DNA of 64,000 nt from Astrocystis sublimbata (taxonomy: Eukaryota; Ascomycota; Sordariomycetes; Xylariales; Xylariaceae): positions 219,593-283,592 of the forward strand of contig JAJNNY010000049.1 of NCBI GenBank assembly GCA_022453515.1, given 5' to 3'. Below, piece after piece: positions 2,553 to 59,231 of the stretch. Under the pieces are notes generated by a model. The model was not told where the DNA came from. It made no database searches and worked only from the letters and a program-made list of their open reading frames with translations. The position numbers and the translations under genes are program-made. Within the stretch, counting starts at the first letter, position 1; each line of letters starts with the position of its first letter.

Positions 2553-3437
2553 CTATGCGCTCCATCTGTACGCCACTCCTGAGATTGGACATCTAGACTC
2601 ACAGTCATATCTGTAAGCATTAAAAGCAACATAGAATATACTATTTCTAGGTTTGCTTAAGGAAAGAGAAAGTCGACCTGCCGTTGAAGGTTTCAAGCGC
2701 AAGCGCACAAGCCATAGGCTATATCTAGGGCTGTGTATGGAAATCGCACGACCCAGCAAAGGCTCAAGAGTCCTCGATTTCGGCACAATAACTCATATCC
2801 ATAAATTCATTTGTAAAGTTCTAAAGATGTGTTGTACTGCTAATACCTAGGTACGTCATGTTCTCGCGCAGATGGGCGACCGTACGGCGTATCAGTGATT
2901 GTATCCCTTTTCACACACTCTCTCCGAGTCACAATCATTTGAAACAATAAGAAAGCATGAGTAGCCGGATATTAGACAAATCTATACTTAAATTCGGTTC
3001 CCCGAAGCTATTTTGCGAACATTGTGTCACTGTCCACAGCGTGACGACTGCAAGGATATTTCGGACTTTCGAGGTTCCGCGTCTTTTTCCCCGGAGCTTG
3101 AGGAATGACAGGACCCTCGAATTTCAATCGCCGTGACCCTAACTCCGAGCAATTAGTGTCATACCCCGGAGTAATATCACTCTGTATGGTGACACGAGAA
3201 GTCCGGTAGCTAATATTAATGTCGTCGATTAGTTCTTTGCTAGAACAGCATGGCGCACGCCAAGCTTCTCTACCATTGACTCAGACCTGAGAAACTGCAA
3301 AGCTTTACTGCAAAGCCTTTCGCAACATTTTACAGTATGTGTATTACATACTTTACTTATACTCACTTACTCTTCACGAACACGCCACCTTATAACAGAT
3401 TAGACTTGAGCAATCACACCCAAATCCCGACTTGAAA
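2553..3437. promoter_or_regulatory. Upstream region of the PKS gene
   Basis: 885 bp between the monooxygenase stop and the PKS start. It holds the monooxygenase 3' end region and the PKS promoter. CCGGAG occurs at 3091-3096 and 3166-3171. CGG-containing repeats of this sort are typical of Zn2Cys6 sites, but no regulator is adjacent. No convincing coding exon seen. Confidence 0.35.
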
Positions 3438-6400
3438 ATGGACCACGAAACGAACGGCTCAAGGCATGCACAAGCAGCCGAGCGAACCCTATTCGTCTTC
3501 GGATCCCAAGTCCTATCCCCCACCACGCAGAGCATAACCAAGCTCCTGCGGCCCCTGAGCACCACAGCCACCTCACCATGGGTGCTCGACGCGGTATCGG
3601 GACTGCCGAAATACTGGGACGCATTGACGAAGAAGATCCCAGAAGTCGCCGGCGCAATATCCGGTGAGGGTTTACTCGCAGATCTCGAACAATGGCTATG
3701 GCACGGCCTGCCAGACGACGGGCGACAGGTCGCCAACTTACCCAACATCATCCTCACCCCGCTCGTCATCATCAGTCAGCTCACACAATACTGGCATTAC
3801 CTCGAAAGTCAAGGGAAGAAAGCCGGAAAGACTACGACTGATCTCCAGAAAGACGTAGTAGCAAAGGACAAGGATGGACGGCAGGGAGCCCAGGCAGAGA
3901 CGCTTGGCTTTTGCATCGGGCTTCTGAGCTCCTTTGCAGTCGCCAGCTCGGGCAACGCACACGAGTTCGAGCGTTACGCAGCTGTGGCAGTGCGGCTGGC
4001 CATGATCATAGGCGCGCTGGCCGACGCCCAAGAAAGTCGGAGCCGAGGCATTGGCCAGGGCCGCTCTGTCGCGTATGCCACGGCCTGGCGAACTCCCACG
4101 CAGGGCGAGGAGATGCTGAGGATAATTGAGGGTTTGTCGCCAGAAGCCTATGTCTCGGTGCTATTCGACGAGGACAGAGCTACTGTCACCACGTCGAAGC
4201 GAAAGGCGCCTCTTCTCGTGAAGCGACTGCGCGTTGCCGGTGTCACGGTCGTCGAGACAGGACTCCATGCCCGTGTGCACAACCCAAACCCGAACATCTT
4301 GCCCTATAAGGACGCACTGGTCGAGCTATGTCGCGATGTTGATGGGCTTCAGTTTCCAGATGCAACAGATCTGTCGCTTCAGACTTACTCAAATGCGGGG
4401 GGTGACAACGTCACTGTGCGACGAGACGCAGGTCGTATGCACGAGATAGCCCTTCGTGCTGTCTTAATCCAGCAGTGCAGCTGGTACGGCACCTTTTCGT
4501 CCGTGGTCGATGCAAAAGATACCGAAAATGTCAGCAAAATAGTGCTGTTTGGACCAGAGCAATGTATTCCGCCTTCTTTGACTCGCATTTTGGGACACCG
4601 ACTTGTCAACTTCTCAGTGTTAGACGCAGACGAGAAATCACCGCCAACGGCCCGGGATACAGCACCCAAACTCAAGCCAGCTTCAATGATGCTTCCGGAA
4701 TATCCCAGAAATTCAACTGTTTCATCACATCCAGAACCACCACCATCTGCGAATGATATGAGCGCCATGGACGAGGATGCAATCGCAGTAATAGGCATGT
4801 CAATCAAGGTAGCCGGAGCCGACGACATCAACGAATTCGCCCAGATGCTCCAGACCGGCGAGTCGCAGCACAGCGAGATCAGCCCCGACTGGATCCAGCG
4901 CGACACGCTGTTCCGCAACACACCTCAACAGAAGCTGTACGCCAACTTGATCCGCGACATAGACGCGTTCGATCACAAGTTCTTCAAGCGGAGCCCGCGG
5001 GAGTCGGCCAGCATGGATCCCCAGCAGAGGCTTTTCCTGCAGGCAGCGTATCAGGCCGTTGAGCAATCCGGATACTTCGCCGAGGCGTCGACATCGACAT
5101 CGACGTCGAGTATCAGCGGCACAGCACACTCGCGCGATAAAGCATGTATTGGTGTCTACGTCGGCTCATGTGCGGGCGATTATGAGCGACACACAGCATG
5201 CCATGAGCCGAATGCGTATAGCGCAACGGGCGTCATGAGGAGCTTCGTGGCAGGCAAGGTGGCCCATCACTTCGGGTGGACTGGTCCGGCCATGGTGTTC
5301 GACACAGCCTGTTCCTCGTCGGCCGTCGCGATCCACACGGCCTGTCGCGCCATCAAGTCAGGGGAATGCACGGCCGCCTTAGCCGGAGGGATCAGCACCC
5401 TAACCAACATCCTGCACTTCCAGGATCTGTCAGCGGCGAGTTTCCTTAGTCCCACTGGCCAGTGCAAGCCGTTCGACGACACGGCGGACGGGTACTGTCG
5501 TGCCGAAGGCATTGCCTGTGTTTTTCTCAAGAAGCTGTCTGACGCTGTCGCGGACGGTAACATGGTCCTAGCCTGCATTGCGGGCACGGCCGTGCACCAG
5601 AACCAAAATTGTACGCCGCTGTTCGTACCTAACTCGCCGTCGTTGTCACGGCTTTTCCAGCACGTCATGCAAGAGGCCAAGGTGAAGCCGACCGATATCT
5701 CGCTCGTAGAGGCGCATGGGACCGGCACTCCTGTCGGTGATCCCGCCGAGTATGAGAGTATTCGTATGGCGCTCGGTGGTCCCATGCGAGAAGAGGTGCT
5801 TCCGATAGGGTCTGTGAAAGGACATATCGGCCACACCGAAGGTGCGTCGGGGGTGATCGCCTTGATCAAAATCATCACTCTCATGCAGGGTGGCTTTCTG
5901 CCCAAGCAAGCCGGCTTCTCGAAGATAAGCCGCCATATCAATGTGCGGCCAGATGACAAGATGGAGATTGTAACATTGCAGAGGCCGTGGACTGCGGCAA
6001 GAAAGATCGCGCTCCTCAACAATTACGGCGCCAGTGGATCGAATGCAAGCATGATTGTTGCTCAATCACCGTTCGGCAACCCCGGTGTCGCAGGTGCTTC
6101 TTCTATCCGTGCCGGAAATGCCAACCGTTTCCCATTCTGGATCACAGGTATGGACGCTCGCAGTATTGCGTCTTATAGCACCAAGCTGTCAAGTTTCCTC
6201 CAGACTGTGCAGCAAAAGGATACCGCGCTCGCTGATCTATCGTTCCACATGAGCAGACAATCCAATCGTGGCTTATCAAAGGGACTTATATTCAGTTGTC
6301 GTTCCATTCCCGAGCTGACACAGGCGCTGAATGAGACCGCGAGCGACGATGGAAGCCAGGCCATGACTGCCAAGCCGGAGCGTCCTGTGATTCTGTGCTT

Positions 6401-9400
6401 TGGCCCGCAAGTTTCGACCTATGTCGGTCTAGACCGCAAGCTGTATGATAGTACTGCCATTCTTCGTCATCACCTGGGCAAATGCAACAAAGTCATCATG
6501 TCACTTGAACTCAACAGCATATTCCCAGATGTCTTTTCCCAAGAACCTGTGCGGGACACAGTCAAGCTGCAGACGATGCTATTCGCCATGCAGTATGCCT
6601 CGGCGAAATCGTGGATGGACTGCGGTCTAGTATCTAAAGTCGTCGCGGTCGTCGGCCATAGTTTCGGCGAGATCACCGCCTTGTGCGTTGCAGGTGTGCT
6701 GAGCCTAGAAGATACAGTGAGGCTTATTGCTGGTCGGGCCAAACTCGTGCAGGATCGCGAAATTTGGGGATCAGACGCAGGGGCCATGATCGTTGTAGAG
6801 GCTGATGGGGCTTTGGTGCACGACCTGCTCGCCGATGAAAACGCAAAGTGCCACGATCCGGCAGTCTGCCCAGCCAGTATCGCGTCCTATAATGGACCAA
6901 GAAGCTACACGCTTGCCGGTTCCACCAGCGCCATTGACGTGGCGGTCGAGATGCTGAAGGGTACAGCTAAGTATGCCTCGATCAAGAGCAAGAGATTAAA
7001 TGTCACCAACGCTTTTCATTCCGGGCTGGTGGAGCCATTCATGCAGGAGTTGCAACAAATTGGTGAAAGCCTCAATTTCAACGATGCAAATATTCCTGTA
7101 GAGCGGGCAACCGAGACCAGATCTACCGAAAGGCTCACTGCCCGTTTCGTACCCGATCATATGCGGAAGCCGGTGTTCTTCAGTCACGCGATTCAGCGAC
7201 TATCTGACGAGTATCCGAAAGCCATTTTCCTTGAAGCAGGCTCAAATTCGACCATCACGGTCATGGCGAGTCGTGCTGTTGCCATGAATGCCGCAGATAT
7301 GCACCACTTTCAGGCCGTGAACCTGAGTGTTGAGAAGGGCATAGATGGCTTGACAGATGCCACAGTAGCGTTATGGAGGCAAGGCCTCCGAGTATCTTTC
7401 TGGGGACACCACCCACTCCAAGCGCAGGAATACCGTCCGCTGATACTACCACCTTATCAATTTGAAAAGGGCCGCCACTGGCTCGAGATCAAATCGCCCC
7501 GAGAAGCCATAGAGAAAGCCGCCGCCGCTCTCGTAGGTCAGAGATCGGAGTCGGCATCAGCAGGCGCTACCGAAGACATCGAGAATACAAAGGCCACTAG
7601 CTTGTTTACTCTTATCGAGTCTCATGAGATGGGCGTTGCAAAGAAAAAAGAGGAGCTATGTTTCCGGTTTCGCATCAATACGAATTCCGAAAAGTACAAT
7701 AAATTCGTGTCGGGCCATCTGATAGCACAAACAGCACCAGTTTGCCCGGCGACTCTGGAGGTAGACATAGCCATCGAAGCACTTTTCAGCCTGAGGCTGG
7801 AATGGAAAGCGGCGGGCTTGGTGCCAGTGGTACACGACCTGGTGAAGCACGTTCCCCTCTGTTTCGATCCCTCGCGAGAAGTTCTGATAGAGTTTACACC
7901 TGCTGGCAGCTCTGACATGCGATGGAATTGGGCTATGATAAGCGCAAGAGTGAACGATAAGGGGAAGAGTGGCCGGCAGGTCCATGCCGAGGCCTCAATC
8001 TACATGCGTGAGCCGACAGATCCCGCTTACGTGCAGGAATTTGCTCGATTCGAGCGACTTGTCAGTCACAATCGATGCAAGGCTCTATTAAACCCTGACC
8101 TTATGAACTCTGACGACATCGAGATTTTGCAAGGACGAAACATATACAGGGCGTTCAGCGAGGTCGTAGACTACGGCGAGGTGTACCGCGGCGTCAAGTG
8201 CGTTGTGGGCCACAGAGAAGAGTCCGCGGGCCGTGTACATAAGCAGCATCGAGGCGACACATGGCTCGACGTGCCGCTGAGCGACTGCTTCGGCCAGGTT
8301 GGTGGCATTTGGGTTAATCTCATGACGGACTGCGGACCTGACGAGATGTACATAGCCACGGCATGCGAGATGTTGATGCGGTCCCACCGAGCTACCGTGG
8401 TCCTTGCCGGCAAGGGCCATGGCCCGGATGTGTGGCACGTGTTCGCCCGCCATACGCGGCAGTCGGATAAGGAGTATACGACTGATGTTTTTGTATTTGA
8501 CGCCGTGACAGGAGCCCTGGCTGAGGTCATGCTTGGCATTCAGTATGCACGTGTGGCTAAAGCATCGATGGGGAAAATGCTGTCAAAATTGACAACTGAT
8601 GCATCGTTCTTGAAGATGAAGCCTGTCGTTACCTCACCGTCTGCTAGCAACAAGATCGACACGGTCACAGCTGGCGACTTGGTAGGTATGAATGGGATTC
8701 AATCATGCGAAAAAGATAAGAAGACCCCGAACGAAGCACCGATTAGCCGCCCAGACATTACGAACAATGTCCGAAGCCTACTGGCCAGTGTATCCGGTAT
8801 CGAGGCGGGCGAAATCACACTTGACTCTGAGCTACCGGACCTGGGCATCGACTCATTAATGGGCATAGAGTTGGCCCGTGAGATCGGGGGGATGTTCAGA
8901 TGCGAGTTCGACCCTGGACAGCTGACGGACGCTTTCACCGTGCGCGAGCTCATTGCCATCATAGCCAACACTGTTCTTGGAGTTGACCAAGGAGGCATTG
9001 GCACTGGTGCAAGTGCAAGTGTACACTCGGCTGATACAGTTTCAAATGATGAGAGTATTGACGAAATAGCATCAAGCTCTGGCCACAGAGAAGTCGTCCC
9101 AACTCCAGCTTCTTCAAGCAATGGGACAAGCAGAATAAGTACGGGATGCGACTTGAACCTATCGCAAAGCGACATCTTGAAGAGCTTTGGCGCAGTCAAG
9201 TTGCGATCAGATGAGCTCATCCGTGATGCCAAGCTAGACAACATGGACAAAGTTGTCCTAGCTGCGACGAACCGCCTCTGCACCGCGTTGATCGTGGAGG
9301 CCCTGGATCAGCTGGGTTTATATCTCCAGGCCGCCGCCCCCGGCGATGCATTGTCAAGAGTGAAGATAATTCCACAGCATCAGCGCTTAGGAGAGTTTGT

Positions 9401-11612
9401 GTATAGATTCCTTGAGCGTGTAGCGCGGCTCATTGATATCAACGACGAGGGTGGACACATGACGCGTACTCACATTGCCGTACCACGAAAGACAAGTGAT
9501 GCCATTCTGCAGGAACTCTTATCCGCATACCCAGAATGGAGCGCGACGAGCCGTCTTACTCATTACGCTGGCAAGCATCTGGCACAGGTTCTCTCAGGCA
9601 AGACCGACGGCATTCAGGTGCTCTTCGGGGCTGCCGAGGGCCGCGAACTGGTGCGAGCCTTGTACTGTGACCATACCTTCAATCGCATGAACTACGGTCA
9701 GATGCGCGACGTCATTGGCGGAATCGTCGAACGCGCTAGAGAGAGCGGGCAGTCTGGGAAAACCCTCAAGATCTTAGAGATGGGTGGAGGAATAGGTGGG
9801 ACAACGCATATACTCGTGCCATTCCTGGCATTGCTTGATCTCCCTGTTGAGTATACGTTTACAGATTTGGCCCCTTCCTTGGTGGCAAACATGCGGCGAA
9901 AGCTGGGAGGCCAGAATCCCTTCATGAGGTTCGCTGTACACGATATTGAGAAGCCCCCGTCGGACGAACTGAAAGGCCACCACATCATCATCGCCAGCAA
10001 CGCCGTCCATGCCACGCACGACTTAGTAGCCTCGACGTCCAACATACATCAGGCCCTACGACCCGACGGCTTTTTGATGATGCTGGAGATGACCGAGGCA
10101 CTTCCATTCATAGACATCGTCTTCGGGTTGCTGAAAGGATGGTCTTTGTTCAATGATGGACGTGAACATGCTGTTGTTCCGCCAGAACGTTGGGAGCGCG
10201 ATCTGCACACCGCTGGCTACGGGCACGTCGACTGGACAGACGGGGTGCTCCCCGAGCAAGCAATCCAGAAGGTGATTATTGCGCTAGCATCTGGATCTCA
10301 ACATGAGCGTCTGCCCAAGCCAGTCCGGGAGTCCTCGTTACGCCACGCGGAAACGATTCAGGAGTTCAACATAGCACGTGAGGTTGAGGCGGAGCGTCTT
10401 CTGGCCAAATATACGGCCGACTGGTCGAATATCGAGGAGAACGGTCTAAGCGAGAGCAAGGCTAGTATTGCGTCGACGGGAGCTGTGATAGTGATCACAG
10501 GTGCCACAGGTAGCCTCGGCTCACATCTGGTACAGGCTTTCGCCGCCAATCCCAGCGTTGCTACAGTAGTATGCATCAACCGCCGCGTCAACAACAGCGA
10601 CGCCGACGAGCGGCAGGACGAGGCGTTCACGTTGCGAGGCATCGTGATGGCTCCGATCGCGCGGGCTAAGCTACGGGTCGTCGAAACAGACACGTCCAAG
10701 TCGCGACTAGGCCTCTCCGAGTCGGTATATGCATGGCTGGTGCAGCACGGGACGCACATCGTGCACAACGCCTGGCCCATGAGCGGGACGCGGCCGCTCG
10801 ACAGCTTCGAGCCGCAGTTCCAGACCCTGCGCAATCTCATCGACCTTGCGCGGGAAATGGCCACTCGCGACACCTGCCCCGCGCGCGTCCAATTCCAGCT
10901 GGTCTCGTCGATTGGGGTCGTCGGCCACGCGGGGGAGGCGTGCGTACAGGAGCGACGCGTGCCCTTGTCGGCCGCGCTCCCTGTCGGATACTGCGCCGCT
11001 AAGTGGGTGTGCGAGCGCATGCTTGACGAGACGTTGCACAAGTGCCCAGCGCAATTCCGAGCCATGGTCGTCCGCCCTGGGCAGATCGCGGGCTCATCCA
11101 CCAGCGGCTTCTGGAACCCGGCCGAGCATTTCGCTTTCGTGGTCAAGTCCTCGCAGACCCTGCGCGCGTGGCCGGATCTCGACGGCATCTTGCAATGGAT
11201 CCCAGTGGATGACGTCGCAGCCACCATGGTAGATCTGATGCATCTTGGGAATCCGACGCCGCCCGATGCGTACGCTGTCTATCACATCGGCAACCCCGTA
11301 GGTCAGCCCTGGAAGGCCATGTCGCCGGTGCTGGCTGGTGCTCTTGGCATACCGGACCATCGCATAATCCCTTTCCAGGACTGGATTCGATTAGTGCGCA
11401 GAGCACCGCTCAATGTTGAGGATGAAAATCCCGCTGCTAAACTGGTTGATTGGTTGAGTGACAACTTTGAGCACATGGCGTGCGGAGGGCTGATCTTGGA
11501 TACAACCAGAGCTCAGGCGCACTCCACGACATTGGCTAATGTCGGGCCGGTGAGTGAGCAATTGGCTCGGCAGTTCGTGGTATCTTGGACCAAGATGGGC
11601 TTCTTGAACTAA
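3438..11612 (+). CDS. Non-reducing polyketide synthase, SAT-KS-AT-PT-ACP-CMeT-R
   Basis: Single-exon iterative type I PKS of 2724 aa. The open frame starts at a TTG (3432); the first ATG is 3438. Domains by visible motifs: SAT with GFCIG (Cys about 159); KS from about 448 with DTACSS (Cys 625), EAHGTGT (His 760) and HIGHTEG; AT with GHSFGE (Ser 1075); PT with SGHLIAQ (His 1427) and a downstream SDCFGQ Asp (1616); one ACP with GIDSL (Ser 1806); C-methyltransferase with LEMGGGIGG near 2114; and a C-terminal reductase with TGATGSLGS near 2353 and YCAAK (Tyr 2518). No thioesterase. Known for this architecture: a C-methylated aromatic polyketide released by NADPH as an aldehyde (methylorcinaldehyde, citrinin and azaphilone precursors). 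With the upstream monooxygenase this predicts a dearomatised aryl aldehyde. Chain length and starter cannot be read from sequence. No reading-frame damage is seen. Confidence 0.95.
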   Translation: MDHETNGSRHAQAAERTLFVFGSQVLSPTTQSITKLLRPLSTTATSPWVLDAVSGLPKYWDALTKKIPEVAGAISGEGLLADLEQWLWHGLPDDGRQVANLPNIILTPLVIISQLTQYWHYLESQGKKAGKTTTDLQKDVVAKDKDGRQGAQAETLGFCIGLLSSFAVASSGNAHEFERYAAVAVRLAMIIGALADAQESRSRGIGQGRSVAYATAWRTPTQGEEMLRIIEGLSPEAYVSVLFDEDRATVTTSKRKAPLLVKRLRVAGVTVVETGLHARVHNPNPNILPYKDALVELCRDVDGLQFPDATDLSLQTYSNAGGDNVTVRRDAGRMHEIALRAVLIQQCSWYGTFSSVVDAKDTENVSKIVLFGPEQCIPPSLTRILGHRLVNFSVLDADEKSPPTARDTAPKLKPASMMLPEYPRNSTVSSHPEPPPSANDMSAMDEDAIAVIGMSIKVAGADDINEFAQMLQTGESQHSEISPDWIQRDTLFRNTPQQKLYANLIRDIDAFDHKFFKRSPRESASMDPQQRLFLQAAYQAVEQSGYFAEASTSTSTSSISGTAHSRDKACIGVYVGSCAGDYERHTACHEPNAYSATGVMRSFVAGKVAHHFGWTGPAMVFDTACSSSAVAIHTACRAIKSGECTAALAGGISTLTNILHFQDLSAASFLSPTGQCKPFDDTADGYCRAEGIACVFLKKLSDAVADGNMVLACIAGTAVHQNQNCTPLFVPNSPSLSRLFQHVMQEAKVKPTDISLVEAHGTGTPVGDPAEYESIRMALGGPMREEVLPIGSVKGHIGHTEGASGVIALIKIITLMQGGFLPKQAGFSKISRHINVRPDDKMEIVTLQRPWTAARKIALLNNYGASGSNASMIVAQSPFGNPGVAGASSIRAGNANRFPFWITGMDARSIASYSTKLSSFLQTVQQKDTALADLSFHMSRQSNRGLSKGLIFSCRSIPELTQALNETASDDGSQAMTAKPERPVILCFGPQVSTYVGLDRKLYDSTAILRHHLGKCNKVIMSLELNSIFPDVFSQEPVRDTVKLQTMLFAMQYASAKSWMDCGLVSKVVAVVGHSFGEITALCVAGVLSLEDTVRLIAGRAKLVQDREIWGSDAGAMIVVEADGALVHDLLADENAKCHDPAVCPASIASYNGPRSYTLAGSTSAIDVAVEMLKGTAKYASIKSKRLNVTNAFHSGLVEPFMQELQQIGESLNFNDANIPVERATETRSTERLTARFVPDHMRKPVFFSHAIQRLSDEYPKAIFLEAGSNSTITVMASRAVAMNAADMHHFQAVNLSVEKGIDGLTDATVALWRQGLRVSFWGHHPLQAQEYRPLILPPYQFEKGRHWLEIKSPREAIEKAAAALVGQRSESASAGATEDIENTKATSLFTLIESHEMGVAKKKEELCFRFRINTNSEKYNKFVSGHLIAQTAPVCPATLEVDIAIEALFSLRLEWKAAGLVPVVHDLVKHVPLCFDPSREVLIEFTPAGSSDMRWNWAMISARVNDKGKSGRQVHAEASIYMREPTDPAYVQEFARFERLVSHNRCKALLNPDLMNSDDIEILQGRNIYRAFSEVVDYGEVYRGVKCVVGHREESAGRVHKQHRGDTWLDVPLSDCFGQVGGIWVNLMTDCGPDEMYIATACEMLMRSHRATVVLAGKGHGPDVWHVFARHTRQSDKEYTTDVFVFDAVTGALAEVMLGIQYARVAKASMGKMLSKLTTDASFLKMKPVVTSPSASNKIDTVTAGDLVGMNGIQSCEKDKKTPNEAPISRPDITNNVRSLLASVSGIEAGEITLDSELPDLGIDSLMGIELAREIGGMFRCEFDPGQLTDAFTVRELIAIIANTVLGVDQGGIGTGASASVHSADTVSNDESIDEIASSSGHREVVPTPASSSNGTSRISTGCDLNLSQSDILKSFGAVKLRSDELIRDAKLDNMDKVVLAATNRLCTALIVEALDQLGLYLQAAAPGDALSRVKIIPQHQRLGEFVYRFLERVARLIDINDEGGHMTRTHIAVPRKTSDAILQELLSAYPEWSATSRLTHYAGKHLAQVLSGKTDGIQVLFGAAEGRELVRALYCDHTFNRMNYGQMRDVIGGIVERARESGQSGKTLKILEMGGGIGGTTHILVPFLALLDLPVEYTFTDLAPSLVANMRRKLGGQNPFMRFAVHDIEKPPSDELKGHHIIIASNAVHATHDLVASTSNIHQALRPDGFLMMLEMTEALPFIDIVFGLLKGWSLFNDGREHAVVPPERWERDLHTAGYGHVDWTDGVLPEQAIQKVIIALASGSQHERLPKPVRESSLRHAETIQEFNIAREVEAERLLAKYTADWSNIEENGLSESKASIASTGAVIVITGATGSLGSHLVQAFAANPSVATVVCINRRVNNSDADERQDEAFTLRGIVMAPIARAKLRVVETDTSKSRLGLSESVYAWLVQHGTHIVHNAWPMSGTRPLDSFEPQFQTLRNLIDLAREMATRDTCPARVQFQLVSSIGVVGHAGEACVQERRVPLSAALPVGYCAAKWVCERMLDETLHKCPAQFRAMVVRPGQIAGSSTSGFWNPAEHFAFVVKSSQTLRAWPDLDGILQWIPVDDVAATMVDLMHLGNPTPPDAYAVYHIGNPVGQPWKAMSPVLAGALGIPDHRIIPFQDWIRLVRRAPLNVEDENPAAKLVDWLSDNFEHMACGGLILDTTRAQAHSTTLANVGPVSEQLARQFVVSWTKMGFLN

Positions 11613-12076
11613 CGCTGGTGATGTTCAAGACAGCTCTGTAGTCGTTATGGACTTAGAGAGAGAATTGATGTACCGCATTTGTCGTCGCTAGCAAACGCCT
11701 CCAGATTTAGACGGTCCAAATTTAATTGGGACGGTCGGGTGCCCTGGCTAGTCTGGCTCTGTATTAGTAAATATATAGTTATAAACACTATAAGTAAGCT
11801 TGTTAGGTGCTTAAAGTAGACCTAGGGGTCCGTGCCCTGTCAAGATACAGCCCTTATTGCATACTAGGTAGGATATCTATTCTTATAGTCACTACATGGT
11901 TATATCTCTTTTATGAATGAGCCATGGCGGGGATAAATAACTTGTTATCGATGTAAGGAGTGTATTCGGTAGAAACAACAAAACCCCCGATAAAATAAGC
12001 AAACTAATTTCAGTGTCTCCATGTTGAATGGTTGACTCCCTTGCTGTAAAATTCCCAATGGTCGAACATCGAAGTT
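11613..12076. other. Intergenic, convergent PKS and kinase-HET ends
   Basis: 464 bp between two 3' ends. Moderately AT-rich, with a stretch of TA-rich sequence at about 11760-11800. No coding or RNA gene recognised. Confidence 0.4.
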
Positions 12077-15000
12077 TCAATGAATGCAAATCCGTTGTCG
12101 CTGGGAACCAATGCACCTTCCAGGTAAATACCCAGCCCCAACCCGTTCGTAGATCCTGAGCCCGCTCCCGTCCTTTCGATTTGTTGTCGCCACGACAAGC
12201 AGATAATGCATTCTGTCTCTCACTTCCAGCCTCTTCGCCCCTTTCTTCACCCCCAAAACTACGCATTGTGCCGCGGGCTGTTGAGCACCCAACGGATCAT
12301 CAAGGATGATTTCTCCATCTCCATCGAGAACGGCTTTTGCTGCGTCATAGTCGCAAGCTTCAGCAACAAGTGCTGCTTTCTCTATCGAATTGTCATTGGG
12401 TGGTTTAAGATCGCCAGTGCCGTCAATAAAGTCTGACGACCAAGGCGAGCTTAGCTTGCTCCAGTCCACGCCCCCAAATGGCGGGCTGATGTAATCAATC
12501 CCCCCAGCGCGCGCCATCCATGACCAAGAAGGGACTGAGCGGATGGGGTGATCGGTGGGAAATGGAATCCGTGTCATCTCTTTTACTTCATTGTCTCGGC
12601 GCCAGAGTAGACTTCGCCTCAAAAGCCCGCCGGTGGAACCAGCTTTGGTACTGCCATCATCAAGAATGCCATAAGCGCCTTCGGCGTTGAGGCCCTTGAG
12701 AATCTGAGATTGCAGGCCGTCAATCGCCATTGTTCGATCCCAGATTTCAGTAAGACCAAGCCAAGAATACTTCTTGAAAAGGTCTTGATAACGGAGAATC
12801 CGCTCTCCCGGGTCAGCTCGCATGATAACTTCGGGAAAATTGGGATCTCCAAGGAAGCTAGCAACCTCACTAGCACGTGCCGGTGGTCAGCGCCTACAAA
12901 TAGAGGATGGTAACCAGCATCAAAATACTTACTTCTCCAATTTTGCCATCGTTTCGCATTGGACCCCATTGCCGCATTCGAAATACGTTTGGCTGTCGGT
13001 GAAATATATGGTTCGCCGAGCTAAGGCATGCTCCTGGAGGACCCAACCTCTTTGGTTCAAAGAACCCTGCAGAACATGATGATCGAAATCGTCTATGTTC
13101 TCACAAACATAAAAAGGTGCTCTTGATTTCCCCTGCTTCAAGACTACTGTCTCTCTCGGGTTGCGCGGTTTGAGAAACCCAGCGTAATGGCCAGGAGATC
13201 GGCTTGGGGCCAGAACACAATATGCGCCCCTATACACTTGCTCCATACGTTTGGCCTCGTGATTGAAGTCGCCGCCAGGTCCTTGTACAATACAGATAGA
13301 GTCGATCCAAACGTATTGTCGACCCAGCTCACGAGTTACAATAACGGCATCTTTGAATGTGGCGGGCAATGAGTGAAAGTCCATCCCATCGATATGATCA
13401 CGTATTGTTTCTGTTGTGGTGCAGAACTGCTTGTCGGTGCCCCACTGATGAGACAAGGCAGTCCATTCAAGGTTGTCGCCAGGACGAGTCGTGCGCAAAT
13501 AGACCTTCTGATCTCCTTGCTTGCCCACATATATCAACCGTGTTGGAAGACTTCTGGATGACGAAAAGCCGGTAGCACTACTTGCGCCCGCGACCGACGA
13601 AGATGCGCGGCAGGTAGTATCCTTGTGCTTATGGTTGCAGTTCTCTAGCCAACATCTAAGGATCTCGAAGTATGCGTCACTGTAACCGTCCACGAGGCCG
13701 GGAAACCCAATCTGAATTTCATGATTGATCCCGGTGTCTAGTCCTATGATCACGTATTAGCTGCCCTAGAACAAGAAACTGCCATACACCTATGGGATTC
13801 AACTTACCCAAGCTCCTGTAAACCGACAATATCGAAGGCTCCTCTCCATTCACTTTGATTGATGAACCAGACCTCTGGATTGTAATTGTTGAATCGGAGG
13901 GAACGTTGTATCTTTTGACCACGGTGGCATAGATCAACCGACACAAGGCGCACTCGCCAGAGTGCTGCTGCAAATGTTGTGGCATGTAGACGACCTCAGA
14001 AACCGGGTCCCAAATTCGACCCTGAAAATCTCTACAACTTTCGCATAGCTCGTGTGGCAACGGGATCTTGGGTAGTAACATTGACTGTCTGTCAATGGAC
14101 TCGAGCAGGCGTTTCGCGAAATCGTTATCAGGAAGAACATTCCATTCGTCAGATATCTTGGGTCATGATACTTAGTATCACTAGATCTTGTCCGTGGATT
14201 AAAGAAATTTGAATCAAGACAAAACGTACCTTCTAAAGAGAGTTAATCACTGTATTGTCGATGCGTTGTTAAATTGAGTAAAACCAATTACTTACAGCCT
14301 GGAGTGCATTGATAGTCAGCCATCAGAAAAAAGTATTTGTCCAAGAGTGTTAGCGATGCTTACGTGCTAATAACCGTCAGTGTCGTTTCGCTTAGTGAGA
14401 TATTCCGATCGAAAAACACTGTAGGCTTACTCCCTATTTCAACCAGGTTGCATGTAAGTCATTCTTGACTTTCCAGAAGTTGACATCATAACAGCGCTAT
14501 ATTATAACATCCGAAACAGTGGACTTACATACTTCAGAGTGTTAAAACGAAACGTTTTGAGTGCATGACTGGTTTTATTTACTTACATCCTACAACTCAC
14601 AACACACATAGAGGATCAGCGCCCTATCCATTGATGACGCTATGATGAAAATACCCACAATCTATTAGACGCAGGATATTAGTAAATGCGATGTGGTCGG
14701 GGCATTAGTTAGTAAGATCAGTTGAGATGAGACGACTACTTACAAGCTCCGTGGAAGCAAGAGACAGCGATCCCAAAGATAGGGACTCGAGACGTTGACG
14801 GATGTCGTCAACATTTGGCCCTTTCGACGACTTGGGCGTACCTGCGAGCCAATAGCTTTCCCTTTCCGTGTCATCATCCTCATCCTCATCTATTATAAGG
14901 GTCATTCGGTCTAAGATCTCGTCAGCACGTGCACGTTCTTTTCCAGATGTTAGTAGCTTAGGCTGGAGGGTTTTCTGATTCGCAAGTGAATCTCCTGATT

Positions 15001-16766
15001 CATCTTCGATCACGATTGATGGCAGTCCATGCGAGGGCGGAAAGTCAACCTTGGGGATTCGTGGACCATTGATGATCTTGGTGATGGAGCTATCGCGTTC
15101 GAAGGGCAGAGTATTGTCCTGAGTCAAGTCCGCATGTGTCCCTAGTCGTTGCGGTAACTTGACTACTAGAAGTTGATCTCTGATGAGCTCGAGCAGATCA
15201 CCCAGTGCAGTACTCCCCGGAGCACAGATGGGGTCTTCAGCCATGTGCTTGATCCACTCGACTGCAACATCGTGAACTCTCGCCTCTGGCTTCCCGATCT
15301 CGTTCTCCTTGATGACGTAAAATCTCGAGTTGTCTAAGTCCTTGTACTCAAGTCCTTTGTTGAAGCGGTTGAGCTCATCCGGACCATACATCAGCCAAAC
15401 CATAAACTCAAGAGTGATGCAACCCAGTGCCCAGATGTCGTACAGACGTGATCTCCTCTTTCCAGACTGGTCCGGCACTAACAGACTGGTGCCCTGAGTG
15501 TAAGCCTCTTCTGGAGGTTCGTATCTCCGCGTACCCCATTTGGTCGTAGTTCTTCTACTTCGCATTTCCGTGACTTTGTAATGTTGCTTTGCAAGCCCCC
15601 AATCCCCGATTTTCAAAACGCCCATACTATGGCCATTCTCGTCTTTGAACCATAGTATGTTCTCGGGTTTTAGATCTCCATGACGGAAGTTAGGACCAGA
15701 CTCGGGGTTATGGGCTTTGTTGATTGCCTTGACAAGTCCGTAGACCTGGTACATGGTATCCTTTACCAACTGAGTCGTCAAGGCCGGTCTCCTGAAGCTT
15801 TTCCACAGGTGTCGCAAGTTCCCACCACTAGCCCACTCAAGCATGAGATAGTGGTTTTCAGATCCTGGACGACCTCGCCGAAACGCCTTATAGAACTCGA
15901 CGATATGAGGCTGCTTGAGGTGATTCATTTTCCTTAGTGCGTCGGCTTCACGACCCCAAATGTTCAAAACGTTCTGTCGATCATCCTTGTTCCTCACTGC
16001 AAGTTCTTTGATAGCGACAAACTTGGGACATTGGAATTGCTGCGAAAATCAAGTTATTATGTATCAAAATATAAACGAACAACGACACAAGCTAGTTTGA
16101 TTCACTTACTGCATCACCGGGTTTGATGAGGTGAGACTTATAGATCTCGTACTTGGTGACCTGACCAAAGTTTCCACTGTCACTGTCGGAGTACTTCTTC
16201 GTGAACGGTAGCACACAAAGATCTTCGAGGTTTGCGGGGGATTGACTAATATCGAACACAGGAGTAAGAAACAGCCATTGTTTCTTACAGAACTCGCCTA
16301 TTCTGCGAGAATCCCATATTTGGGTATCCCCTTCGCTGGGCGAGGGAAACCCCAGGTCTTCATCGTATTCGAAGTCTTCAGTTTCATCCTCGTCTTGAGG
16401 CTGGGACTGGGGGGATCCCACGCCTCTCTGAAAAAATGTATCCATCCCGACTGGTAGTGTACTATCAGAGATACCAGCGTTCACGAGTTGCTGTATCCCC
16501 AATCGTAAATCCTCGTCCTCCAGCCAAGACATAACAGCTGCAGCAAAGGTTTTCCTGAAATTCCCTTCCAAAATTGATTGTGCCAGGGAACGTGCTGTTA
16601 GGATCTCTTCCTTGGGAATTCGCTTCCTCCCTTGAAATGCTCGCATTATACTTATCTCGGTAATGAGGGTATCAATGACACCCTCCGGTAAGAATTCAGA
16701 CGGTCGCTGATCAAACTCACTCTCAACAAGCGCATTTTGGATCCTAGTGAAGAGTTGGCTAGACAT
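12077..16766 (-). CDS. Protein kinase-HET fusion protein with a chain of microexons (proposed gene model)
   Basis: Proposed 1308-aa protein. Exons: 16766-16110, 16039-14744, seven 3-nt exons (see 14157-14743), 14156-13808, 13743-12933 and 12869-12077; every junction keeps phase. The N-terminal 219 aa resemble the other kinase's N-terminus. Kinase domain: VAIK (Lys 230), HGDLKPENILWF (341 Asp; HGD instead of HRD), DWG (365, in place of DFG), YEPPE and DIWALG. A Ser/Asp-rich tail follows. The HET part begins ISDEWN at 659 and carries CESC, then the HET motifs WTALSHQWG (about 870), VWIDSICI (about 925) and RGWVLQE (about 1006). In family terms, HET domains mediate incompatibility and cell-death reactions in moulds; kinase-HET combinations occur in fungi. 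Alternative: two genes, a 663-aa kinase (stop at 14705) and a 625-aa HET protein starting at ATG 14081. The fusion is favoured because 25 codons upstream of that ATG are open and look protein-like. Confidence 0.75.
14157..14743 (-). other. Tandem array of seven 3-nt microexons separated by eight short introns
   Basis: Read on the minus strand, AG|NNN|GT recurs seven times: ATT 14661-14659, GAT 14589-14587, TAT 14531-14529, GGA 14433-14431, CAC 14366-14364, GCT 14298-14296 and AAG 14232-14230. Donors are GTAAGT or GTAAGC in most cases, GTGGGT after ATT and GTACGT after AAG. The intervening segments are 82, 69, 55, 95, 64, 65, 63 and 73 nt, all normal fungal intron sizes. Most carry a branch-like element (for example CTTACTAAC in the first, CTGAC, ATTAAC, TACTAAG). 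The chain starts after codon GAG-CTT of the kinase exon and ends at ATA-TCT of the HET exon, all in phase 0, encoding I-D-Y-G-H-A-K. The introns show no obvious similarity to each other. Splicing is inferred from sequence only. Confidence 0.65.
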
Positions 16767-18182
16767 GACATTGAAAACTTATTGAAAGTCGGATCTTGAA
16801 ATTGTGCAATAATGTGCTATCGAGAGATCGATGGTCTGCATTTAACTCACAAACCAATAATTGGGATCACAGCGCCCTTTAAATCACAAACCCTGTTCCA
16901 TATATGCAGCCACAATATGCGATATCTGCGGATAGCTACATGAATTTGGGGCCTACAAAGCAATACTTGAGGCAGGCTGTGGTGATGCACTGGCAAGGGT
17001 CCACTGGATGATACTGGGCGTTGCCTCAATCTCGTGCATGCCTGCCGCCACGAAGCTGAATCTTCAAAAGTACCCTCGGCTGACGATCGACAGTTATGCT
17101 GCGGTAGGCTTTCTTGGCACCCACTAGTCCCGCTACACCTCGCAGTCCTCACCACATTGTCGCTTTTCAGTTGGATGCCTATGCCTTTCGCACTCTTCGA
17201 TCTCATCCTGAAAGTGTCTGCGTATTAGCATTGAACTATATATACAAGATTCTGAACATAAAGTACCTTCGACAGGTCACGCGAGGCCCAGATATTGTAA
17301 GTGTTATGAACCATCTGCATATTTAGTAGAGGCTTTCAACCTGAGTGACCAGATAACATACGTGGACACTGAACGCTTTGGAGCCAAATGTAGATTTCAG
17401 TTTTTGCGCCAATTTGGCCGAGTCAATGTTGGTTACCGGAATGCTTTGCGGACCCCGTGAATTCCGTCTGGTTCGCGAAAAGGGGATATGCATTATGTCA
17501 TGTATTAATAGAGTGTTAATGCAATGATAGCTCGAGGTTTCTGTAAGTTGGGTTTGCTGTTCCTTGAAGGCGAGTTAAGACTATAGATATGAATTGCACG
17601 AAGCCTATATATCTCAGCAGTTTTTCCACTTCTTGGTTTCTCAAGGCGTGCCATGCCTGGCGTGGGCGCAAACCGGTCACGAGCTGAAACTTTCTACACA
17701 GCGCCACTGAAAAGTACATCCTTCGAGTCTTCGTGATTGGCCGTGCAAAAATAGAAACAGGTTCAAATCAGCCGCTGCACCTGACGGCTTCCACCTAGCG
17801 AAAAGGGCAAGATCGCCGATGTCGTGTGCAGGTGTTTACGCAAGTCCGACAATCCCGGCTCAACTGTGAGTCTGGGAGACGGCCATGGCGGATCTCTGCG
17901 TTAAGGTCGCATAGATGGCGTTTTTACCTTACCGGGAGGTCGGCGGCTAAGCAATGGCCCCCAAAGAACGGTCTATGGGCGTAGCAAATGGCCTCATTCC
18001 GAAAATACGCCTTGCTATATATGCCCACAGGCCTCGGCTTCATTGCTCGCCACCGAGGCCGTATTGTTTGTCACATAGTTGATTAAATCATTCATTCGTA
18101 ACCAAATACGGAACATACAGCTATCCGCCGCAGCAAGGCTTGCGAAGTTCCGAACTGATTGCTGTCCGCTTACAGATTTGCC
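16767..18182. promoter_or_regulatory. Intergenic region between two head-to-head kinase genes
   Basis: 1416 bp separating the starts of the kinase-HET gene (minus) and the second kinase (plus). It must hold both promoters. Only short shadow frames are present; I saw no motif, repeat or RNA gene I would defend. Confidence 0.4.
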
Positions 18183-20579
18183 ATGGATCTCTGGAAGCAT
18201 GGCCATGGAGGAGTCACTGTACCACTAGTCAGCCCCAGGCCTATTGCTAACCAAACAACGCTGGATCCCCATGGTCCAAGCATCGATTCATCGGACAGTC
18301 ATTCATATACAATCGAGGATAAAGCTACTCTACGCAATCGTGCACATTGGTTTTCGGATATCATGCTTACCGAAGGTGGGAGTAGAGTAAGCGTTGCATC
18401 GTAAGGCATACTGAACCACCCTCGACTAACACTCAATGTGACGCAGATGTCCCGCATTGGCCCTGTGACTTGGCTGCAGAATCGGCTGTCTGAAGCAGCC
18501 GACACAGTGCTTTTAGCACTCAACACACGCCCAAATGGACGCACTGAACCCCCAATCACTTTTGACGCAAGTTCGCAAGAGCGTCTCTCCAAATTTGGCT
18601 CCCATGGAAAGACTGGAACCAGCCTCACAGGTCACGATGTTTCACGCTCTAGGCTACAAGCGAAGATTTGCCAGCAAATTCGGAAAAACTACAACGAAGA
18701 AGCCAAGGCCTGGTTCCTACCTTTTCCAATGCTGGTGCGGCTCTTGAACCGTAAGGTTGTGGAACGTCAGCTTGCTAGATCAGACTCATTCCTTGAGAAA
18801 AAGTCACAAAACGTTCTTGAGCGACTAAGGTTCCAATTTCCAAGAGACAACACGAGACCGGAAGCCATACGTGCCCAAGCAGGGATTATAATTGGAGATT
18901 TTGATCAACTTTCACTGACAAATGCAATTCGACATTGGAATGGCAGGTCAGATCGAGATGATTCGGTACATAAGAAATCTTATCTGAAGATTATGGCCAT
19001 TCTCATCTTGATAGAAAGACCGTTTAGGATCAAGCTCTTCATTGAGGAAGAGATCTGCGATCAAGATCTTCCACTTGTTCTATGTGAACAAGATCCAACG
19101 TCCGCCATACCCAGGGAACTTCGCAAAAAAGATTCACTCCATGTGCGGTTGAAATGTTTCGAAGGCTGGTCGGACGCTACAGTCGTGAGGTTTGAACAAA
19201 GTCAGTGGTCGCTTCTCGCACCTGGATTTGAGACCGCAAAAAGAAAAGATGTCCCTCATTACAAGTTCGATCGGAAAAGGATCCTGCCATTCAAATCTAT
19301 CAAGAACACCGCACAAAGGGGGGGTGGGTTTAGTCTAGTGCGTAAGGTTGAGATTCATCGAAGCCATCATGCCTTCACCAGCAGCAAAGTGAGTACCTCG
19401 TCCTGCCCGAGAACCCTTGCTCTTACCATCATACACGACGATAAGGCACTATGCGCAAGATGCTAAGTCGAATAGATATCTGGGCAATTCTTCGCCATCA
19501 AAGAGCTTAAGGGCTCACAGAGCCAAAACATGTTCAAGAGGGAGGTTGCAGCACTGAAGAGACTAAGTGGCGACGCTCATCCCTATCTCATTTCTCTACT
19601 TGGGACCTACGAGATAGATGGAACATACAGTCTCATTTTTCCCTGGGCAGAAGGGGATCTATCTCAATATTGGCAGCAAGAACGAGGGCTGGTGGAAAAA
19701 TCAAAGAAGCATCTCAGGTGGATATCTAAGCAGTGCCAGGGAATTGCTGAAGGTCTCTCATACATACACCGACTTGAGACAACATCTGGGAGCTCCCTGA
19801 TTGATCACGGCTTTCTCCCGGCATTCATACAGGAGTCTGGTATGGCGGGACCTGATACCCACAGAAGAGCGACAACAACGAAGCTCCGTCTGTTTGGTTT
19901 ACACGGAGACTTAAAACCGCAGAACATTCTGTGGTTCCCAGATTACAGCAGCCCGATTGGTAGAATGAGGGGACTGCTGAAGATCACTGACTTTGGGTTT
20001 GCAGAGTTCAGTATTGACGAAACCATGAACAGTCGGCCAGAAGATCGCGCCATCAATCTGACATATCATCCACCCGAATCCAAACTGAACACTGATGTTA
20101 TCGGCTGTTCATACGACATCTGGTCTCTGGGATGTGTCTATCTAGGGTTCATTGCATGGTGGCTTAGTGGCCACGATAGCATTGTGACGTTCTTCACTAG
20201 TCGATTGCAGCGTCCTGTCGATTTGAATCCATGGACGGATGTTAGCTACAAAAGCGATGCCTTCTTTGAAATTGCACTGAACCATAAGACTGGCCATCTT
20301 AGTGCCAACGTCAAACAATCTGTTACAAAGGTTTGTGTTTGTGTTCCGTACTATATAATACTTCTGACACCTTTCTAGTTTCTTGATGAGATGAAACATT
20401 CGATCCGGCGCCGGCGAATCCGAAAGTTTTTGATCGGCTTTCTGGAACTGATTCAAGATCACATGCTAGTGGTTGAAAATCAAATGAATAGGGGCTCAGG
20501 TCCTCATCGCAAAAGCTCCACGAACGTTGCACTGGCACTGGAAACCATGCGCAGTGATCAAGGTTGGATTGATACTTAA
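18183..20579 (+). CDS. Protein kinase, paralogue of the kinase half of the kinase-HET gene
   Basis: 733 aa in four exons: 18183-18386, 18447-19388, 19476-20330 and 20379-20579, all phase 0. The ATG at 18183 opens exon 1; the second exon alone would start at a GTG. The N-terminal 380 aa have no recognised domain but share with the neighbour a QWxxLxPxF...LPF block just before the kinase. Kinase: FAIKEL (catalytic Lys), LHGDLKPQNILWF (HGD not HRD), TDFGFAEF (DFG intact), YHPPE and DIWSLGCV. An intron sits immediately before FAIKEL in the same place and phase as in the neighbour, supporting common origin. There is no HET domain. The C-terminus is uncertain: a splice from 20563 to an AG at 20631 would end it at 20657. 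Likely an intracellular signalling kinase; substrate unknown. Confidence 0.8.
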
Positions 20580-20751
20580 GTACTTAACATAATTAGCTTC
20601 CTGACCCGGCAATCTAACACCTTGACATCAGATAGTAAGTCTGATGAACCTAGGTAGTGTAATACAATATTCTATAACAAACATGTTTGAAGTTTATTTT
20701 GAGATTCCCATGACAATGCAAGGCGAACGAAAGCATAATCACGTACCTCAA

Positions 20752-23700
20752 TCATTCTGGCTGATGCATCTTCTCCTTTTCAATAACGAAAATTCCAAAG
20801 CGACTAACCCCCGCCTCATTCTCTCCTCCGTATGTCTTTCCCTCCTCGTCCGGTAAGTTTCCCCAACCCATCCAGAAGTGAGCATCAGGACCCCCCGGTA
20901 TAGGGTCGGTGGCATCTGGGGCTAGCTCATTAAAAATGTTGCCGCCGAAAAGGAGAGCGGCGACAGATGCTATGGTAGTAGGACTGCGCGGCAGTACGTT
21001 GGCGGGAGGGCTCAACACCCAGCCGGTGACGAATAGAATGAGCGAAGTAGCTAGTAGTGCGACCAGAATATGCGTGGATGTCGCGTCCTGGACAACCCGA
21101 TGTCTACCTTTGGCATCAGTAACAGTAGCGTTGACCGTGCGCTGGGTGTCTTCATCATCGGAAAGCCTTGGAAAAGCAAAGGTGGTCATTGTGCTATTTG
21201 GGTCATTGACAACTCTCTCAGTTGTGGGCTGGAGCATCACTGCAAGTCGCTGCGCTGAAATGATGCCATTGTGAAGCTTGATGGCATCAATGACGTCGTC
21301 ATGCTTCGACGGGTCTCCCAGAGTTGAGGCAGGGATTGCCCAAGGAGAAGTCAGAAGCACCGCGAAAAAGGCATCGACAGCCTCGATAACATTGACTGAG
21401 AAAATGCCGAGGCCGTGCCCGCCCCAAAGCTCAAATGAACTTGCGGTAATGTTGTTAATAGTTATGTTTTTTACTGTATCTTCGAGAGGTTGCGGCGGAT
21501 TACGAGCATCCAGCTGGAATTCGGTGCCGATGTAGGTCGCGTTGACGAGGAGGGCCTCGAGGATCATCGTGCAACTAATGGCTGCAGCATGCTTCACGGA
21601 GAACGTATTTTTTTCGCGCTCAAAATGAGCCCAGAGGTAAGTGAAAATGTTGGAATCGTCATTGGTAGCTGATATGCCAAAATAAGTTGCGTTGGGGTCT
21701 AGAAACGGACTGCCAAGCCAGAGCGGATCAAGGCCGTCAATTCGCGGGGTGAGAAAATATTCATCCACACGGTCATGTATTGGGTGATATACGTGGACTC
21801 GGGTAGGATCATGGGATATGCATTCCAGTTTTGGTCGAATTGCTGGGACAATAGCTGAAATAGTTGTTGCTGTGCTATCGAACTTGGGAATCTCGGTTAT
21901 AGTAGCACTAGGTTCCAAAAAGACCAGATCTTTGTATGTGAAACGGGGAAAAGAGTAGTTGCTCTGGAGGATGAGGCTGGGGATTTCCAGACATGGACTA
22001 GAAGCGTAACCCACGCCTGTGTCGTCAACACATCCATTGAGGGTAAAGGGGTGATTGTGATTGTATTTAAGTGTCAGGAATGTTGCCGTTGGCATCTGGA
22101 GAGCTTGAAATAGGGATGCGGAAAAGTTAGTGAAAAAGGACGCAACGAGGAAAGCTGTTGTGGTACATAAAGCCCAAAAAGCTCTAACTTTGAATTGTCG
22201 AAATACTGCAAAGGGGACAGTCATGTCAAGAAACTCGAGTTGCTCAAAAACAGCTCGAGGTGTCTTCTTAACGAGAGTCATATACGGAATCAATGTTCTT
22301 ATCTGGAAGTCGACAGCTGAGAAAGCCATAGATATAATCCCAAGAATGAGCGCAGGAACTATAGTCCATGCGTACTGTAGATAGGTATTAATGTTGACGT
22401 CCCCAAGGCCTTTCTCAATATTTGATTTGAGCAGAAATAACTCCAAAGTAACAATGAGGCCAATAGTACTCAAACAGAGCGTAAGTCGACAGACGGGATG
22501 CAAAATGAGAGGATACAAGGATTTCGAAGAATTTTGAGGGAAATGAGCCGATGTCCCACTATCGATTACGTGGAATTGGAAGTGTTTAGATTCTTGGGCA
22601 TCGAAATAGCCACAGTAAAATCTAGAATCTGCGAGTAGATGGAGAAGCTGCTCCTTGTCTGAAGCCCCTGCATGCTGCAGTTGTATCGAAAGTTCCTCGC
22701 TATACCGAAGAATTGAAGTGAAGTCTTGGAGTGTGGCTACACCGCATGGCAGAAATCCTTTTCCGGGAACTAGGAAGACCGCGATGGCTATGAGCACTAC
22801 ACAGGATACACATAAAGCCACGGTCAGTTGAGAAACCCAGCACCGTAAGATCAGACGATTTTCGTTTAAGGTGATAGATCCCAGAGTCGCAGTATGAGGA
22901 GGGGTCGGGGCCATGAGATATAGTTTTGCAAGAATTGCGCCTAGTTGCTGATAGTAGTTCTCAACTACCCTCTGTAAGACGCTAGCATCAAACAGATCGG
23001 CAGCCTGTGTCCCAGGCTCAAGCTGAGAATTTAATGCCGTGAACATGTCAGGATCAACGTCCACGGGAAGGTTCGAGATGTTAATCGACTGCCCAGTAGT
23101 CCAATCATCGATGGCGGTAGAGATTCCTTTGTGTCGCCACAAAATATCCCAAGCTGTGACTGATCCTAGAAGGGTGCGTGATGTCCCCGGGACGGGATGA
23201 ATAGACTTCGTTTGCGTAAAGTTTCGAGTCACTTGAATTTTTTCAATTGCATACTCCGGCACGCAGACAATGGTTGTCGATTGGGTGAGAATGCCAATTC
23301 TAGGATTGGTTGTTGCATCTTTGCTGAGGACAGAATCTCGACCGGCAGCTTTGGTAAAACATTCTGTATGGTAGGTCATGTTGCCAAACATCACCAGAAT
23401 CCGTTTCCCCTCATCGCCCAATATTGAATCGCACTGCACTTGTTGGAACTTTGCAAATACCGTCGAGTTGCTCTGGCCTAATCTTCTTTCGAAAACCCCT
23501 GGCAGACTCGCAAGTGAAACATTGCATCTAGGTGATGATATAGTTAAGTCGAGCATCGCAGTTGCTTTTGGAACCTCGGTCATATCGCTCGTATAGTTGT
23601 GAGGCCGGTAACTTCCCGGCTGAGGGGCTATCGCTCCTGCTAATGTAACGTTGGCGGGTTTGCACTGCATTGAGTTGACCAAACCGTCAACTATCACTTG

Positions 23701-59199: not shown

Positions 59200-59231
59200 A
59201 CGTCATCCACAAGCCGATGCTGCACTTTTTA
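59200..59231 (+). repeat. Left terminal inverted repeat of the Fot1-like element
   Basis: 32 bp starting ACGTCATCCACAAGCC and ending CACTTTTTA. Matches the right end perfectly apart from a 17-bp insertion there. Confidence 0.9.

Follow-up and report, generated by a model that had tools for sequence, protein, structure and literature searches.

The question raised by this locus is whether a fungal gene can carry a run of exons that are each a single codon long and, if so, how such an array arose and what it would do for the protein. The gene lies on the minus strand of a window of 64,000 nucleotides (the whole stretch of DNA that was analysed) from Astrocystis sublimbata (Xylariaceae), and encodes a protein kinase followed by a HET part. 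A sequence-only reading of the window had picked out, between these two parts, seven occurrences of AG-NNN-GT with exactly 3 nt between acceptor and donor each time. When the sequence was parsed, both the coordinates and the letters proved to be as claimed, and positions 14157–14743 of the minus strand comprise eight intron-like GT...AG segments separated by seven 3-nt exons. The predicted model of the gene encodes 1308 residues and, in the direction of transcription, is made up as follows:

16110..16766, minus strand: exon 1 of the kinase-HET gene in the gene model, with its ATG at 16766, a start identical to that of the database protein P0001
14744..16039, minus strand: exon 2, protein kinase domain (PF00069 in P0001) and linker, ending ...GAG CTT
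14662..14743, minus strand: intron 1, GTAAGT...TAG, 82 nt; if retained, 12 codons and then a stop ending at 14705
14659..14661, minus strand: one-codon exon 1, ATT (I)
14590..14658, minus strand: intron 2, GTGGGT...TAG, 69 nt
14587..14589, minus strand: one-codon exon 2, GAT (D of the DYG motif)
14532..14586, minus strand: intron 3, GTAAGT...AAG, 55 nt, weak acceptor
14529..14531, minus strand: one-codon exon 3, TAT (Y, invariant across 11 aligned linker segments)
14434..14528, minus strand: intron 4, GTAAGT...TAG, 95 nt, without a branch-like element by pattern
14431..14433, minus strand: one-codon exon 4, GGA (G)
14367..14430, minus strand: intron 5, GTAAGC...TAG, 64 nt
14364..14366, minus strand: one-codon exon 5, CAC (H)
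14299..14363, minus strand: intron 6, GTAAGC...CAG, 65 nt
14296..14298, minus strand: one-codon exon 6, GCT (A)
14233..14295, minus strand: intron 7, GTAAGT...TAG, 63 nt
14230..14232, minus strand: one-codon exon 7, AAG (K)
14157..14229, minus strand: intron 8, GTACGT...AAG, 73 nt, weak acceptor
13808..14156, minus strand: first HET-part exon in the gene model, starting ISDEWNVLPDNDFA...
12933..13743, minus strand: second HET-part exon, containing the HET domain core (HET match C134:232623-233057)
12077..12869, minus strand: last exon in the gene model, with the stop at 12077

The closest database protein to this gene is P0001 (A. sublimbata F4808DRAFT_473132). Pfam places a kinase domain (PF00069) and a HET domain (PF06985) in P0001, and no others, with the linker motif region between the two, which makes the gene a kinase-HET fusion. 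Kinase and HET also share one protein in nearly all of the 120 homologues listed. Elsewhere in the window, a second protein kinase gene (18405–20580, plus strand) is divergent from the kinase-HET gene and has no HET match, and a single open frame of 2738 residues (3396–11612, plus strand) encodes a non-reducing polyketide synthase with SAT, KS, AT, ACP, methyltransferase, and NAD_binding_4 domains. The G+C content is 0.36–0.43 at 58001–62000, compared with about 0.5 elsewhere.

The array has the features expected from the earlier reading. Its eight gaps, of 55–95 nt, are of ordinary intron size, given that the three introns elsewhere in the model measure 70, 64, and 63 nt. Most donors are indeed GTAAGT (four) or GTAAGC (two), the remaining two of the eight being GTGGGT and GTACGT, and a pattern search found a branch-like element in seven of the eight introns, the exception being intron 4. 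The acceptors of introns 3 and 8, both of which end in AAG, are weak. All eight introns are in phase 0, and the GAG-CTT of the kinase is thereby connected to the ATA-TCT of the HET part through the residues I-D-Y-G-H-A-K, which are followed by ISDEW. The predicted cDNA reads CTT-ATTGATTATGGACACGCTAAG-ATATCT with the array spliced in and CTT-ATATCT with a direct join. The corresponding predicted tryptic peptides are LESLSLGSLSLASTELIDYGHAK (...STELIDYGHAK) when the seven residues are included and LESLSLGSLSLASTELISDEWNVLPDNDFAK (...STELISDEWNVLPDNDFAK) when they are skipped.

It had also been argued that chance would not give this spacing repeatedly, and simulation points the same way. In 30 Mb of sequence generated by an order-3 Markov model of window positions 11000–27000, with 33 donors accepted, the longest chain of one-codon exons was two, compared with seven in the window (the script itself scores the window chain as eight, since CTT, with which the kinase part ends, is preceded by an AG as well). 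With exon sizes of 1, 2, 4–10, 12, or 15 nt, no chain exceeded two in 275,679 real bases, some loci of which overlap. When the same bases, which come from this genome, were scanned at 3 nt, with a branch-like element required, chains of 11 and 5 were found at two loci, C110 and C115, respectively, the latter count taking in one upstream codon that is unused in the C115 model of four. Four chains of two were found elsewhere in that scan, and the window array came out as two separate runs of three, intron 4 having no element that satisfies the branch requirement.

One-codon spacing is not a general property of the genome, since GTAAGT pairs 3 nt apart number 38 genome-wide, as opposed to 27 for the reversed pattern, and eight of the 38 lie in a single array (one more lies in the window). 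Pairs of the form GTAAG...AG-NNN-GTAAG were not in excess genome-wide (72 and 98, vs. 124 and 135 for the reversed controls). The equivalent genome-wide counts were 21 versus 32 for GTGAGT, whose clustered places are simple repeats, 26 versus 24 for GTATGT, and 7 versus 42 for GTTAGT, one of the seven being the C115 array; these three scans gave no run of successive places besides C115.

A HET search of the genome returned 143 matches, and the array scan covered the DNA upstream of 72 of them (30 loci with 1.5 kb flanks, one of them truncated where its contig ends, a further 40 stretches of 1.6 kb, the window itself, and C114). Judged as genomic signals, runs of at least four consecutive 3-nt exons were present at three of these 72 matches, namely the window (7), C110 (11), and C115 (4), and in all three cases the run is beside the HET part. 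Apart from these arrays, the longest chain at the 72 matches was one of three, obtained with relaxed donors at L086, which we took to be chance. The stricter donor pattern misses C115, and similar arrays elsewhere may likewise escape it. The HET search also revealed mirror-image pairs of matches with equal scores on opposite strands (G000:C186 69032–87301 and C7 52000–67992), which suggests that HET genes have recently undergone inverted duplication.

The strongest indication that the seven exons are used comes from their translation, which is independent of the splice-site argument. Kinase-HET homologues from many ascomycetes carry a short motif just before the folded part that leads to the HET domain, and it is found there unbroken (e.g., RIDYGNAELDNNW, RVDYGDTKLADDW, and QVDYGHPKLDPNNW). 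The pattern in homologues is x-D/N-Y-G-x-x-x, then L/I-D-x-x-W....DN.FA, and IDYGHAK with the ISDEW that follows it falls into the same register without a gap. An alignment of 11 linker rows, selected because they have the motif, shows an invariant tyrosine and a nearly invariant aspartate. Across the 68 homologues that possess the anchor pattern, out of the 120 listed and with P0001 left out, Y stands in exact register in 28, of which 26 also have D or N before it, and 40 have no Y at the motif place; homologues without the anchor pattern were dropped, and some of these also show DYG. Scored against a profile to which all 68 rows contributed, whether or not they have the motif, IDYGHAK obtained 11.2 bits. 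Random peptides built from the AG-NNN-GT triplets of the window had a mean of −5.6 (SD 4.4), with 1 in 200,000 scoring as well as IDYGHAK, and of the 5040 ways in which the seven residues can be arranged, the observed one alone scores this high. In a structure model of P0024, a homologue with an unbroken motif (mean pLDDT 79), the motif is located in a segment (residues 379–401, pLDDT <50) that directly precedes the folded part. With such low confidence, the segment gives no indication of a structural role for the motif, and variants of the linker would probably leave both domains intact.

The public protein P0001 is the window model minus exactly IDYGHAK, and is otherwise identical to it. It corresponds to splicing straight across the array, which had been named beforehand as an outcome that would contradict the seven exons, and it is itself a gene model, although one that might draw on RNA reads. 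Taken at face value, it would mean that a single 587-nt intron (14743–14157) joins kinase to HET, with the triplets being skipped or decayed exons. The direct join is also in frame, and several homologues are annotated without the motif. We nevertheless consider such an intron improbable, as it would be approximately nine times longer than the gene's three other modelled introns, and would leave unexplained both the seven intact AG-NNN-GT modules and the fact that their codons fit the conserved motif in the best possible order. Moreover, very small exons are often overlooked in automated annotation, as passages in two papers on such exons point out (PMC11121469; PMC12940212). The idea that kinase and HET are two separate genes, with the array as intergenic noise, is scarcely credible. 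The kinase frame does read through to a stop at 14705, but the first in-frame ATG in the open frame of the HET exon is codon 28, almost all of the listed homologues have both domains in one protein, and the array is not produced by chance. On these points, chance, a single long intron, and two separate genes were rejected.

We conclude that the array of one-codon exons is very probably genuine. It is likely that it consists of eight real spliceosomal introns that cut 21 nt into seven one-codon exons encoding the conserved IDYGHAK, and, judging from the sequence, the RNA is very likely to be spliced so that all seven codons are joined. The central proposal of the sequence-only reading, that seven one-codon exons connect the kinase to the HET part, is thus supported by a translation that matches a conserved linker motif.

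Gaps similar to that in P0001 are seen in other annotations. The proteins P0051 (Lasiosphaeria miniovina) and P0059 (L. ovina) are 93% alike, and what P0059 is missing is a stretch of exactly seven residues (INYTHPE) whose borders coincide with those of the window gap. Relative to P0006 (KDYGQTN), all four proteins compared (P0008, P0016, P0017, and P0023) have a 7-residue gap at this place. Against the window model, the result is less uniform: in P0011 and P0014 the seven missing residues are placed a few positions further on, P0002 lacks nine residues, rather than seven, and P0008 aligns without a gap. We also placed the 68 homologues in a tree together with the window, C114, and C115, midpoint-rooted and read without support values. 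The Y in register is absent from 10 of the 11 annotated homologues in the window's clade, as opposed to being present in seven of seven in the sister clade. Either the motif has been missed by annotation in the window's clade as well, or it is dispensable there. Gaps of seven residues would look the same whether the annotation conceals an array or a 21-nt exon, or the residues have really been lost.

Insight into the origin of the array comes from the related loci of the same genome. A related kinase and a HET match occur on the same strand at three loci, C134 (the window), C115, and C114, and at each of the three a further related kinase match lies no more than about 5 kb away. The two further arrays are located as follows:

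L032 4646-5544, minus strand: C110 array, 11 one-codon exons upstream of the HET domain
L057 569-865: C115 array, four one-codon exons TAC AAT GGA TTT, then GPTKLDDVWKAFPDNEFA

In the C114 paralogue, the linker is unbroken (...ITNPDYSLPPLDQWQF) and there is no intron at that point. At C115, the introns of the array are 50–65 nt long and the kinase is present upstream. By eye, the kinase part holds an insert with a stop (L066 about 3395–3730) and the HET part looks frameshifted before the HET core (L057 about 1460–1510), so that this copy has probably decayed. Four intron positions look to be common to C115 and the window when the two are aligned on the W. Shared positions would make an old, shared array possible, and they fit such an array as well as they fit repeated gain.

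The C110 locus is different in kind. Its predicted model has a short first exon, MEIPHEIFE, followed by eleven codons (AAC GAA CTT GAA CGA TAT TTT CTT CGA CGA GAT, of which the first is ambiguous, being AAC or, in other scans, CGT) and then a HET exon, YDSWVRF.... In residues 1–386 of the model, HET was the sole domain found by Pfam, and the 11-residue peptide was found unbroken in none of its listed homologues. Eight of the introns are near-copies of 67 nt. Within these eight units, 17 of the 67 intron columns vary, and they do so by transitions only (197:0 in pairwise comparisons), whereas all three codon columns carry transversions; the chance that the codon columns would be the sole transversion columns of the 70 is 1 in 54,740. 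Five pairs of introns that differ at just 2–4 of 67 sites flank codons that differ at 2–3 of 3, and intron and codon distances are uncorrelated. The locus registers as 70-bp tandem repeats (L032 4713–5342), in which TRF also finds a higher-order period of 210 bp, and transition-only differences are what repeat-induced point mutation would leave.

The window array lacks this uniformity. The mutual similarity of its introns is not above that of shuffles (P 0.55), and tandem-repeat finding across 13500–15500 gave just one 6-bp repeat, at 14874–14890, outside the array. The motif is equally long in unbroken homologues, which suggests that introns were added to an existing sequence in the window, or were lost elsewhere. 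On balance, we lean towards the view that the array arose by repeated multiplication of introns into a once unbroken linker, with copies placed at 3-nt steps. The intron copies at C110, standing beside unrelated codons, are as insertion would leave them, the alternatives for that locus being strong diversifying selection on the codons or gene conversion among the introns. Possible, but less likely, is an origin by tandem duplication of a unit of intron plus codon, after which diversifying selection would have driven the codons apart, as in other repeats with a role in fungal recognition. Such duplication would account for the tandem 70-bp units of C110, with their repeat-like homogeneity and transition-only changes, and part of one study (PMC4986451) describes, for the NLR repeats of fungi, a turnover of repeats in which diversification is codon-specific. 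Duplication would, however, have added codons, whereas the window motif keeps the length seen in unbroken homologues. The discordance between introns and codons at C110 and the dissimilarity of the window introns also count against it. The suggestion of successive intron gain stands as plausible, in view of the unbroken linker of C114 and the near-identical introns beside unrelated codons at C110, and either gain or ancestral presence may explain the window array.

The micro-exon genes of schistosomes contain series of short, symmetric exons whose skipping keeps the reading frame, although these exons are longer than one codon and the genes encode secreted animal proteins. One-codon arrays are not new in fungi either, and the statement in the earlier reading that no fungal example had been described does not hold. 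Multiple 3-bp mini-exons, together with alternative splicing, have been reported in the NACHT-ANK (nank) genes of Tuber melanosporum by Iotti et al. (2012), as cited in passages of four later papers (PMC3689799; PMC4986451; PMC9815663; PMC10197012), one of which puts their number at tens and another at dozens. According to these passages, the truffle arrays, like that of the window, are 3-bp exons in fungal genes of the non-self-recognition type in which in-frame skipping is possible, and their alternative splicing is described as a source of diversity in the C-terminal recognition domain of NLR genes. In contrast, P0001 has only kinase and HET domains, rather than those of a NACHT-ANK NLR, and the window array sits in a kinase-HET linker and spells a motif common to other fungi. 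Astrocystis also differs from the truffle in that one genome holds both a diverged array (the window) and a nearly uniform one (C110).

Single tiny exons have also been described in fungi, such as a 1-nt exon in Fusarium CYP621A (PMC12940212) and a 20-nt exon in Trichoderma Xlr2 (PMC11121469). As portrayed in the relevant parts of these papers, they resemble the window exons in being tiny, located inside conserved motifs, and missed by annotation, but there is one per case, rather than a run of seven. Stwintrons of the Xylariales, the same order, are removed sequentially by intron definition and have similar copies at new sites, as set out in sections of PMC12403724. They are nested without an exon between them, whereas in the window each intron is complete and whole codons stand between one intron and the next; each of the eight has an intact donor and an intact acceptor, neither of them interrupted by another intron. 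Moreover, the C110 array, as distinct from stwintron copies at new sites, was matched at one locus only. Introners (PMC9860276, in part) are near-identical introns that have multiplied, as at C110, but they are similar introns at many sites of a genome. In a DNA similarity search of the genome, with very common words skipped, the C110 and window arrays each matched only themselves, and the C110 array is local, as opposed to genome-wide. In the literature on HET and kinase-HET genes, no one-codon exon arrays were found among the matches listed, subscription papers being mostly outside that search. What sets the present case apart from the truffle arrays is the gene family, the position of the array, the shared motif, and the presence of a diverged and a nearly uniform array in one genome.

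As for how such an array would be spliced, we propose that intron definition leads to the removal of its introns in succession, joining IDYGHAK, because simultaneous occupation of two splice sites only 3 nt from each other is hardly feasible. A case for sequential removal by intron definition has been made for Arabidopsis APC11, with its 1-nt exon (in a passage of PMC4674806), and for stwintrons (PMC12403724, in part). Full splicing would yield the conserved linker. Since each exon is one codon in phase 0, skipping of any exon would stay in frame, whereas retention of intron 1 would add 12 residues and then a stop, giving a kinase without HET. By that route, it is possible that the array could control whether kinase and HET are joined. 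In-frame skipping and the stop in intron 1 together suggest that the array probably limits, and may vary, the amount and the linker of the full-length kinase-HET protein, a role that we put forward tentatively.

An alternative proposal would be that the array serves combinatorial splicing, with in-frame skipping yielding linker variants that diversify a non-self-recognition protein. Every exon is a single phase-0 codon, three loci have an array next to a HET domain, the codons of C110 differ while its introns and splice sites are nearly equal, and the truffle NACHT-ANK genes, as presented in the passages cited above (PMC3689799; PMC4986451; PMC9815663; PMC10197012), offer a precedent. However, the window codons match a motif common to distant fungi, which argues for full inclusion, and not for variation, and we regard combinatorial use of the window array as doubtful.

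Runs of one-codon exons test the smallest exon that a spliceosome can handle, and the intron-defined splicing of fungi makes them a good system in which to do so. The near-identical introns of C110, beside unrelated codons, make the origin of introns testable by comparing strains. If the gaps in related annotations reflect the same feature, many fungal immune-type proteins would be mis-annotated at a conserved motif. Speculatively, a fungal process may multiply introns in 3-nt steps, leaving the protein unchanged, and may have done so repeatedly in immune-type genes (truffle NLRs, kinase-HET, and HET). C110 would then be a recent and still homogeneous case, arrays would be used for combinatorial or throttled splicing, and annotation would hide them as gaps of about seven residues in many kinase-HET proteins. 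If the window array is what it appears to be then, taken together with the report from truffle, one-codon arrays would have arisen in two distant fungal lineages, in the same kind of gene.
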